This document shows, in pieces, positions 24,533 through 27,881 of a stretch of 27,927 nucleotides of DNA. This DNA is from a virus, in IMG/VR virus record IMGVR_UViG_3300009418_000088, positions 1-27,927 of that record; one strand, written 5' to 3'. The position numbers were made by a program, and so were the translations under genes. The first letter of the stretch is position 1. Each line of letters starts with the position of its first letter. Under the pieces are notes generated by a model. The model saw nothing but the letters and a program-made list of their open reading frames with translations. It ran no database searches and was not told the DNA's origin.

Positions 24533-25399
24533 TTATCTTTGTGCTGGGGCAGTCGTCGAAGGTTTATCAGATGCTAATTCAGTTTTGTATATATTTCCTT
24601 GCCATAAAAAGGTTGATTTTCCAGATTTTCTGGCGGCATCAAATGCTTCACGGAAACTTTGTGTATTAGCCTGTCCTTGCGATCTAGCACTAGCACCAAC
24701 ATCACCAGCATAACCTGGACCCGTTGCAGTAATTGGCGCTCTCTGCGGGGCAGCAGGAGCAATGCCTTGTTGCATAGGATTAACAGCAGGACCAGTAGGT
24801 GCTGTAGGCATAGGCATAGAACTTGGAGCACCAACCGGAAGTCTACGAGCTTGCATTGGTGGACCAGCTGGTGGTCGCTGCCTCATCTGAGGGGGAGGAG
24901 AAGGAGGAAGAGGAGCAGAAGGAGAGGGAGGAGGGGGAGGAGGAAGTGGTGGCTGTGCTAATGGGCGTATAGGACTAGGAGCACGCATACTCCTGCCACC
25001 TAGGGCTTCTGGAGAGTATGGATTACGGCTAGCATTTAATCTAATATTCTCTTCAGACTGTCCCTGTGGCAAGGCGTTATCCAGTGCTTCAATATTATCT
25101 ATCAATTTACCTTCCTGAGAAGGTGTAATATTTTTAGCCTTTTTATCACCAGATGGCATAAAGGGGCTTACAGCCCCCATTAAATCGTGGACAACACGAA
25201 AAGCCTTGGTTTCAGATCCAAGGTTCTCAACAAGACTAGGAAATTCTGTAAATGCCCGTTGTAAAGCATTCATACCGGCTTTAGAAGCCATAGATATAGA
25301 ATTATTACTAGTAGGTATATCTGGTGAAGTAATACGAGGTGCTTTGGTTAGAGCATTTAAGAGTTGTGGAGCTTCTGTAACTTCCGAAAGATTAGCCAT
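24533..25399 (-). CDS. Pro-rich virion protein with C-terminal FREAF..ARK.GK..F.W motif
   Basis: A 288-aa protein. The N-terminal 130 residues are polar and partly helical (MASKAGMNALQRAFTEFPSL). A Pro-rich segment (residues about 140-215, including PLPPPPPPSPSAPLPPSPPP) follows. The C-terminus QSFREAFDAARKSGKSTFLW, then QGNIYKTELA is a short module that recurs at the ends of phage virion and hypothetical proteins. AGGAG sits 6 nt before the ATG. It is the first gene after the late promoter and structured leader. Probably an internal or minor virion protein, without assigned function. Confidence 0.65.
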   Translation of the reverse strand: MANLSEVTEAPQLLNALTKAPRITSPDIPTSNNSISMASKAGMNALQRAFTEFPSLVENLGSETKAFRVVHDLMGAVSPFMPSGDKKAKNITPSQEGKLIDNIEALDNALPQGQSEENIRLNASRNPYSPEALGGRSMRAPSPIRPLAQPPLPPPPPPSPSAPLPPSPPPQMRQRPPAGPPMQARRLPVGAPSSMPMPTAPTGPAVNPMQQGIAPAAPQRAPITATGPGYAGDVGASARSQGQANTQSFREAFDAARKSGKSTFLWQGNIYKTELASDKPSTTAPAQR

Positions 25400-25439: not shown

Positions 25440-25536
25440 AAAAGTTACCTCCGGTAATGGAGTCAGTAATCAGATTATAGATAATATTCTGTTACCTGGA
25501 CTAACTTTTGTCACCTGGACTCGTCATTACCGGAGG
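25440..25536 (-). ncRNA. Candidate pseudoknotted leader RNA
   Basis: In the leftward transcript a perfect 12-bp stem forms between CCTCCGGTAATG (25536-25525) and CATTACCGGAGG (25459-25448), around a 65-nt loop. Within the loop AAAAGTTA (25509-25502) is an exact complement of TAACTTTT (25447-25440) immediately 3' of the stem, which would make an H-type pseudoknot. The loop also carries AGTCCAGGTGACA and AGTCCAGGTAACA 19 nt apart. It lies in the 5' leader, 41 nt before the ATG at 25399. It could be a regulatory RNA or a protein-binding site. The class is unknown. Confidence 0.5.
25492..25521. repeat. Direct repeat pair (T/C)ACCTGGACT
   Basis: TTACCTGGACT at 25492-25502 and TCACCTGGACT at 25511-25521 differ by one base and are spaced 19 nt start to start, inside the loop of the large inverted repeat. 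They could be operator half-sites on one face of DNA or paired protein-binding sites in the RNA. Confidence 0.6.
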
Positions 25537-25611
25537 CAAAGTAGTTGTTATAAAATTACACTATTCGTATGCTCAAATTAATTTTAATTGGTGTAGCACC
25601 TTGAATGTAGC

Positions 25612-25629
25612 GTATAATATATATTATAC
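25612..25629. repeat. 18-bp perfect palindrome over the promoter -10 region
   Basis: GTATAATAT/ATATTATAC is a perfect palindrome that covers the -10 hexamer of the leftward promoter (25623-25628). Because of the symmetry a TATAAT also reads on the plus strand. Without a suitable -35 on that side it is probably a repressor site or incidental to the AT-rich sequence. Confidence 0.55.
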
Positions 25630-25651
25630 AGTGTTTAAAGTATCTTGTCAA
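25623..25651 (-). promoter_or_regulatory. Consensus sigma-70 promoter for late block (P1)
   Basis: Leftward TTGACA (25651-25646) and TATAAT (25628-25623) are separated by exactly 17 bp, with TG directly before the -10 and ATTTTTTAC before the -35. Both hexamers are exact consensus. The likely start is about 25616, giving a ~217-nt leader before the ATG at 25399 that includes the structured RNA. It would transcribe the Pro-rich, terminase and virion genes using host RNA polymerase. Confidence 0.85.
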
Positions 25652-25696: not shown

Positions 25697-26005
25697 TTAG
25701 CTCTGTAACCCTTGCTCCTCCTTAGTTACAACTTCTTCAGCTAAATCTTCAATAGGGGCTTTCGTGGCAGCAGTATCAGGTGTATTATCACCTTTCAACT
25801 GCTTTATGGACATTCCAGTTAAAGCTTGGGTATATGCCATGCCCATAAGAAAGGAGTTTCCAAGCTGATTTGCAACAACATTGGCATTATCTTCCCTATC
25901 TAATGTTACACTAAAGTTAGCGTTAAGAGGGGTTACAATTTTATATTTACAAACACAGGCGTCACCTTCACCCTCTTCAACTTTCTCAATATTAAATATT
26001 TCCAT
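25697..26005 (-). CDS. Hypothetical protein coupled to the Tad2-like gene
   Basis: A 102-aa protein. The frame extends upstream to 26056, but the ATG at 26005 overlaps the Tad2-like stop as TAATG, which decides the start. MEIFNIEKVEEGEGDACVCK, then strands (YKIVTPLNANFSVTLDRED) and a helix (NQLGNSFLMGMAYTQALTGM), ending in an acidic disordered tail. The CVC pair is notable. No family is recognised. Tight coupling to the anti-defence candidate suggests either a partner or just a shared accessory operon. Confidence 0.65.
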   Translation of the reverse strand: MEIFNIEKVEEGEGDACVCKYKIVTPLNANFSVTLDREDNANVVANQLGNSFLMGMAYTQALTGMSIKQLKGDNTPDTAATKAPIEDLAEEVVTKEEQGLQS

Positions 26006-26364
26006 TAAATTAAAATCCAATCTTCTGTTAATAAATCTGTTTGAGAGGGTGTCCAAGGAACATACTTACCCTCAGTAGTCATCATAACAATAAAATCTTT
26101 AAATCCTCTGTAGTGGTTATTGCCATGATTATATAAAATAATCCATATATGTCGATTATTCCATCCTCGTCTAGATACTTTCTTACCTTCTTTTATATAC
26201 TCATATACTGTAGCAAAACTAAATACATTAGTATTCTTGGCAATAGTATGACCCGCCTCTATTTGGTCACTAGCTAATTCTCCCAATAGAGAGTGGCCCC
26301 ACTGTTCTGCTTTATCTTTAAACTCGTTCTGATCACCTTCATCTATATTAGTTGTATCTACCAT
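26005..26364 (-). CDS. Tad2-family (DUF2829) protein, candidate anti-Thoeris factor
   Basis: A 119-aa protein whose residues 48-119 match the DUF2829/Tad2 pattern: FSFATVYEYIKEGKKVSRRG, then WNNRHIWIILY, FIVMMTTEGKYVPWTPSQTD and LLTEDWILI. The conserved EG.KV.R.GWN, the FIVM segment and W.(P/A)SQTD.L..DW are all present. Known Tad2 proteins are phage sponges that bind the cyclic signalling nucleotide made by Thoeris, blocking the NADase effector. An extra ~47-residue polar N-terminus is not part of the usual compact domain. AGGAAA lies upstream of the ATG. Many DUF2829 proteins are untested, so activity is inferred from the family. Confidence 0.82.
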   Translation of the reverse strand: MVDTTNIDEGDQNEFKDKAEQWGHSLLGELASDQIEAGHTIAKNTNVFSFATVYEYIKEGKKVSRRGWNNRHIWIILYNHGNNHYRGFKDFIVMMTTEGKYVPWTPSQTDLLTEDWILI

Positions 26365-26827: not shown

Positions 26828-27166
26828 CTATAATATATTAAATGATTCTCCACAGCCACAACTAGATTCAACATTCGGATTCTCCAGTTGAAGGATTGAT
26901 CCAGAAATATCTCGCTTATAGTCAATATTCATGTTCATTAGATACATTAAAGACATGCTATCTAGAACAAGTTTATTTGTATCGTTTATATTTATCACTT
27001 CATCAAGTTGTTCGGGGCCCTCAGTAAACTTCCACTGATATGAGAAGCCCGCACAGCCACCCCCTTTTACTGATAAATGTACGTATGTCTGATCTTCTTT
27101 CTCACAGATAGTCTGTAGATAATCTTTAGCTGCATCCGTTAAGGTTACAACTTCCTCATTAAGCAT
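26828..27166 (-). CDS. A-type iron-sulfur carrier protein (IscA/ErpA/HesB family)
   Basis: A 112-aa protein with all three cluster-binding cysteines in the family positions: Cys38 in VKGGGCAGFSY, and Cys103 and Cys105 in SSCGCGESF. The N-terminal VTLTDAAKDYLQTICE helix also fits. A-type carriers receive Fe-S clusters and deliver them to target proteins in the cytoplasm. Phage copies are known auxiliary metabolic genes of marine phages and may support host Fe-S enzymes during infection. It follows the 64-aa membrane protein by 3 nt and belongs to the operon from the promoter at 27724-27752. Confidence 0.93.
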   Translation of the reverse strand: MLNEEVVTLTDAAKDYLQTICEKEDQTYVHLSVKGGGCAGFSYQWKFTEGPEQLDEVININDTNKLVLDSMSLMYLMNMNIDYKRDISGSILQLENPNVESSCGCGESFNIL

Positions 27167-27723: not shown

Positions 27724-27752
27724 ATTATACTACGGTATAGCACTTTTGTCAA
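27724..27752 (-). promoter_or_regulatory. Consensus sigma-70 promoter for accessory operon (P2)
   Basis: Leftward TTGACA (27752-27747), 17 bp, TATAAT (27729-27724), both exact. ACGATTATGC lies upstream of the -35, closely matching the same region of the divergent promoter P3. The predicted start near 27717 gives a short leader to the ATG at 27686. It would serve the coiled-coil, Fe-S carrier, holin-like and Tad2-like genes. Confidence 0.87.
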
Positions 27753-27857
27753 GCATAATCGTGTGCCAAAGTGTGTTTTTTCTAAAGTACCCAGTAAGAG
27801 GTTTTTATTAACTATAAAAAAGTTTTAGGTTTGTGTACGATTTTACTTGACAAAACC
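27742..27857. repeat. Inverted repeat across divergent -35 regions
   Basis: TTTTGTCAAGCATAATCGT (27744-27762) and the reverse complement of ACGATTTTACTTGACAAAA (27837-27855) agree at 17 of 19 positions. The match extends well beyond the -35 hexamers into the upstream parts of P2 and P3, so the two divergent promoters appear to be copies of one element facing opposite ways, or to share an upstream binding site. Confidence 0.7.
27753..27846. promoter_or_regulatory. Divergent intergenic spacer between P2 and P3
   Basis: About 95 bp without a gene, AT-rich, containing A and T runs (GTGTTTTTTC, ATAAAAAAGTTTTAGG) upstream of both promoters that could act as UP elements for host RNA polymerase. No further motif is evident. 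Confidence 0.5.
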
Positions 27858-27875
27858 GTCAAACGGGTGTATAAT
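27847..27875 (+). promoter_or_regulatory. Consensus sigma-70 promoter facing right (P3)
   Basis: TTGACA (27847-27852), 17 bp, TATAAT (27870-27875), both exact, with TG right before the -10 and ATTTTAC before the -35 as in P1. The predicted start, about 7 nt after the -10, falls on or near the A of the ATG at 27882. It faces a rightward gene or block lying outside the window, presumably early genes. Confidence 0.87.
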
Positions 27876-27881
27876 AAAACT

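Follow-up and report, generated by a model that had tools for sequence, protein, structure and literature searches.

The virion-block leader and its genes

The stretch of DNA analysed in this study, hereafter the window, is a 27.9-kb record of an uncultured virus whose terminase most resembles, at up to 54.7% identity, those of the HMO-2011-like marine podoviruses, placing it in the same phage group as Puniceispirillum phage HMO-2011 (54.7% identity). On the minus strand, a sigma-70 promoter stands ahead of the packaging/virion block, as the preliminary description of this locus had noted, and the leader between this promoter and the first gene, which encodes a proline-rich protein of 288 aa, contains the structured element considered here (Table 1). 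On its other side, the leader is bordered by a 119-aa gene (25697-26056). The promoter, together with an extended upstream context resembling GCATTTTTTACTTGACAA, is conserved in three relatives (L018:698, L021:1286, and L027:4323) whose terminases are only ~53-70% identical to that of the window, and all three are devoid of both the hairpin and the pqqA gene described below. Promoters similar to that of the virion block also occur near 27750-27876 on both strands. A search for a conserved fold in the leader's first 60 nt gave z-scores that were weak and inconsistent among relatives.

The 288-aa gene shares 70-87% amino acid identity among the window and the related contigs L003 and L004, whereas the terminases share 97-100%, and this far faster divergence suggests that recombination or fast evolution may have acted next to the leader. 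Elsewhere on the minus strand, the product of positions 26005-26364 has a domain resembling Thoeris anti-defense 2 (PF11195, E 1.6e-19), and positions 26828-27166 encode a protein resembling iron-sulphur cluster carriers (PF01521, E 2.8e-18), possibly an auxiliary metabolic gene.

Table 1. Features of the leader, the element, and the adjoining gene in the window
Feature	Position	Strand	Evidence or remark
Promoter TTGACA-17-TATAAT	25623..25651	minus	Exact sigma-70 consensus, 12/12; upstream stretch GCATTTTTTAC recurs in relatives
Site of 120 extra bases in L003, including pqqA	25540..25541	minus	Window compared with L003
P1, 5' arm of stem	25525..25538	minus	Fold energy; compensatory C-G to U-A in L003
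P2, 5' arm (GAGUC), predicted inner helix	25518..25522	minus	Energy only; invariant in two copies
Loop word AGTCCAGGTGACAAAA, first copy of direct repeat	25506..25521	minus	Repeat comparison
Loop word AAAAGTTA, proposed pseudoknot side 1	25502..25509	minus	Exact complementarity
Loop word AGTCCAGGTAACAGAA, second copy of direct repeat	25487..25502	minus	Repeat comparison
P4, predicted inner hairpin	25465..25496	minus	Fold energy; 4/12 pairs broken in L004
P2, 3' arm (GACUC)	25460..25464	minus	Energy; same in half copy L004
P1, 3' arm of stem	25446..25459	minus	Fold; comparison with L003
TAACTTTT 3' of stem, proposed pseudoknot side 2	25440..25447	minus	Overlaps two outer P1 pairs and T-rich tract
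Site of 54 extra bases in L003, common to L004	25437..25438	minus	Absent from window
288-aa proline-rich gene after leader, function unassigned	24533..25399	minus	No match in Pfam or PHROG

A structured non-coding element

Read from the minus strand, the element RNA contains a stem, P1, made of 12 perfect pairs with a G-U and a U-A pair at its base. The perfect part (CCTCCGGTAATG/CATTACCGGAGG, 25448-25459/25525-25536) encloses a loop of 65 nt, and both are present in the sequence exactly as first described. It is the sole perfect inverted repeat of at least 12 bp with a loop of at most 120 nt within the window, for which 0.13 would be expected, and a leader of the same length and make-up would contain one by chance in ~0.7% of cases. 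The minus strand folds with an energy of -38.6 kcal/mol, whereas shuffled sequences average -20.7 (z -5.8), the predicted structure comprising P1, P2, and inner hairpins. The two near-identical loop words reported earlier are confirmed as 16-nt direct repeats, 88% alike and 19 nt apart.

No coding signal was found in any frame of the element, in line with the original view that nothing in it codes. A hidden frame of 38 stop-free codons, shared by L003 and L004, was considered and rejected, since it has no start codon, it has 6 synonymous versus 12 non-synonymous codons, and its changes by codon position (6, 8, and 9) show no synonymous bias. This frame (L003:1470-1586, L004:6-122) runs from the loop to past the hairpin and has a hydrophobic end; 54 nt of the frame are deleted, in phase, in the window. 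A search of the Rfam 15 families, including riboswitches, ribozymes, and leaders, as suggested in the preliminary description, gave no match at the gathering thresholds, and relaxed matches lay far below them. Nor was an intrinsic terminator, in the sense of a compact GC-rich hairpin followed by a U run, returned by the scan; the loop spans 65 nt and the tail reads UAACUUUUAU.

Copies in related contigs and stem covariation

Scanning IMG/VR by pattern and by protein recovered only three carriers of the element: a twin contig (3300025296_000282) identical to the window across the leader, a sister contig bearing pqqA (IMG/VR 3300030392_000252; loci L003, L008, and L012), which provides the only other distinct full copy, and a half copy (IMGVR_UViG_3300028925_007901; L004 and L013), whose contig ends inside the loop so that the 3' half only is present. 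Other IMG/VR matches to a loose 3'-half pattern lay in unrelated sequence and were attributed to chance, and blastn against phage records gave short chance matches only. The phage collection and the segment of HMO-2011 that was searched contained no copy.

The window and the sister differ at four of 99 element columns. Two of these changes are partners in one P1 pair, converting C-G to U-A, so that the covariance check proposed for the 12-bp helix finds the stem preserved by compensation in the sister; a third turns G-U into A-U at the base of P1, and the fourth, in the 3' flank, turns U-A into U-G in the proposed pseudoknot. The chance that two of four random changes fall on partners of one P1 pair is ~1.8%, and the compensatory change appears to support P1 modestly, with a shuffle control for covariation being powerless with two sequences. 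Templated DNA mutation could be an alternative source of the same change.

The half copy differs from the sister element at ~16% of positions, no less than the remaining leader does. Its identity of ~84%, compared with ~90% for terminase third codon positions (L004 versus the window), indicates that the element in L004 changes at least as fast as those positions. On this sequence comparison, purifying selection and conservation of the inner structure are unsupported by the half copy, because its rate is below neither that of the leader nor that of the terminase third positions and four of the 12 P4 pairs are broken. P1 itself cannot be assessed in this copy, which lacks the 5' arm; its 3' arm differs from that of L003 at three positions.

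pqqA next to the element and elsewhere

In the sister contig, the leader from the promoter to the hairpin includes a stretch that resembles a ribosome-binding site and also pqqA (L003:1331-1408), the 25-codon gene for the precursor peptide of the cofactor PQQ, whose 25-aa product (MAWKMPNIAEISIGMEINCYACAEL) matches Pfam PF08042 at 24.2 bits, above the cut-off of 21.1, and has the conserved E-x3-Y core. The hairpin starts 14 nt past the pqqA stop codon (z -5.7; the sister copy of the element itself folds with z -6.3). The bases of the sister that are missing from the window fall on the two sides of the hairpin, so that both flanking deletions in the window spare it, and no PqqA was found in the window record, which is probably incomplete. 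Since L004, which is more distant by terminase (97% amino acid identity versus 100% for L003), has the 54-base stretch, its loss in the window would be the simpler reading of these sequences; pqqA may have been lost in the window as well.

Further phage contigs (L051-L058) carry pqqA, and about three genomic settings can be distinguished when the sister is included. The pqqA contigs G022 and G023 have HMO-2011-like terminases that are 50% identical to that of the window, and therefore pqqA was gained at different sites within a broad group. Downstream of pqqA at another site (L051, L052, and L053), a hairpin of 15-17 bp stands ~40 nt away (z -3.7 to -4.8), and the third setting (L055) has no strong hairpin (z -1.2). 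Regions downstream of bacterial pqqA genes had fold z-scores of -2 or lower in 16 of 22 cases, many with terminator-like stems.

The element itself was absent from 23 host genome loci with pqqA. Origin from a host pqqA locus was also pursued with a covariance model over ~390 alphaproteobacterial genomes and rejected as a candidate, the one weak match (E 0.017, one genome of 385) being taken as chance; the model was built from two sequences, and its empty result is weak evidence. The papers found on pqqA transcript ends did not settle the question. In SI047_bin100, a marine alphaproteobacterial bin, three pqqA genes lie on separate contigs (L066, L068, and L072), one directly ahead of an apparent pqqB and two alone.

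Origin and possible role of the hairpin

The element looks like an ordinary gene-spacer hairpin. Our tentative preference, put at a little short of an even chance, is that it is a hairpin from the end of the pqqA cistron in a mobile cassette and stayed in the leader once pqqA had been lost. A small pqqA cassette would have been inserted between the virion-block promoter and the first gene of what would be a single transcription unit. As long as pqqA was there, the pqqA portion of the transcript would have had its 3' end marked by the hairpin, which might act as a barrier to 3' exonucleases, a processing site, or a weak attenuator. The short PqqA message could in this way exceed the message downstream, either by being produced or by being preserved in greater amount, a role that would parallel the terminator-like hairpins behind bacterial pqqA genes. 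In the window, pqqA would have been deleted and the hairpin would stay in the 5' leader as a relic or a protective 5' hairpin.

This reading is favored because the stem follows the pqqA stop codon so closely in the sister, because the compensatory and G-U/A-U changes are found among so few differences, because the element was spared by two flanking deletions with the 54-nt stretch shared by L004, because hairpins also follow pqqA in L051-L053 and in most of the bacterial regions, and because the pqqA-less relatives L018, L021, and L027 also have no element. It is weakened because there are only two distinct full copies and the window has the element without pqqA, because pqqA in L055 has no strong hairpin, because the loop greatly exceeds that of a usual terminator and only a short T tract is present, because the half copy changes at or above the rate of terminase third positions with four P4 pairs broken, and because the element was not found behind host pqqA genes.

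Two rivals to the cassette reading are serious. The hairpin could belong to the 5' leader of the virion transcript as a general feature independent of pqqA, serving as an mRNA stabiliser or a site of RNase III-type processing, with pqqA inserted upstream of it in the sister. The presence of the hairpin without pqqA in the window, its strong fold, and its place between the promoter and the first gene all suit this account, and the direction of the pqqA change is unproven either way; nevertheless, relatives with the same promoter and a similar gene order have no such leader hairpin, the element thus being no general part of this late leader, and we consider this account rather unlikely. Alternatively, the element might be a relic or a chance inverted repeat with no present function, its compensatory change having arisen by templated (quasi-palindrome) mutation. 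Such an origin would fit the at least synonymous rate of change and the broken inner helix in L004 and the confinement of the element to three relatives' contigs. However, the fold z-score of about -6 in both copies, the low probability that a leader of like make-up would contain such a stem, and the survival of the element between two deletions make it unlikely.

A DNA-level site, at which a protein of the phage or the host recognizes the repeated words within the inverted repeat close to the promoter, seems improbable. The two 16-bp direct repeats and their position ~80-175 bp past the expected start site would be compatible with it, but the words do not recur as a pair elsewhere in the window, they are missing from relatives that share the promoter, and the G-U/A-U interchange at the stem base suits RNA.

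The preliminary description had proposed a pseudoknot RNA in the late leader, of which the structured non-coding element is supported and the pseudoknot is not. Such a pseudoknot or switch, in which the loop word AAAAGUUA pairs 3' of the stem for antitermination or for ligand or protein sensing, is to our judgment very improbable. The complementarity between the 8-nt loop word and the 8 nt after the stem is indeed exact and is retained via a G-U pair in the sister, and the right-hand deletion in the window stops just past the post-stem word. It is only mildly unusual, because its chance is 0.4% when exactly adjacent and 3% anywhere within 15 nt on either side of the stem. The variation of this helix between the two full copies is the single one-sided U-A/U-G change, none being compensatory; the duplex is AU-rich and weak (~-4.1 kcal/mol free) and was not energetically preferred over the nested structure with which it competes, since keeping its bases unpaired costs the nested structure ~3 kcal/mol before any pseudoknot penalty. 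By a geometric estimate, the 8-nt linker looks too short for the stem base when the GAGUC/GACUC helix is formed, and no Rfam relation was detected. Most improbable of all is a phage-specific cis RNA switch in which the P1 3' arm would take part in two competing pairings, with P1 or with the loop word, and thereby couple PqqA expression or host PQQ state to the virion genes.

Comparison with known systems and implications

The put antitermination RNAs of phage HK022 form two separate stem-loops at early promoters. Compared by description only, the element resembles them as a structured RNA soon after a phage promoter; kinship is not supported by sequence or structure, and the relatives that lack the element use this promoter to drive a similar operon. 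The element shares with the terminator-like hairpins behind bacterial pqqA genes a strong stem-loop close after pqqA and before the next gene. Those hairpins, however, are compact, rich in GC, small in the loop, and often followed by a T run, whereas the element, which is unrelated to them in sequence, combines a structured loop of 65 nt with a weak T tract.

PqqA has been reported in a virus from Lake Baikal, a phage of Methylophilaceae (PMC7678222), so that a phage-borne PqqA precursor peptide is common to that virus and the sister phage described here. The Baikal pqqA lies in a T4-like genome together with methanol dehydrogenase (PMC7678222), whereas the phages here are HMO-2011-like, and pqqA heads the virion block in the sister and is missing in the window.

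The pqqA context is the most useful result of this analysis, and the hairpin alone is minor. Uncultured HMO-2011-like marine phages took up pqqA at about three sites, once directly behind the virion-block promoter, and a strong hairpin often follows the gene. This uptake suggests that such phages may support PQQ-dependent oxidation in their hosts, as has been proposed for the Baikal methylotroph phage (PMC7678222).
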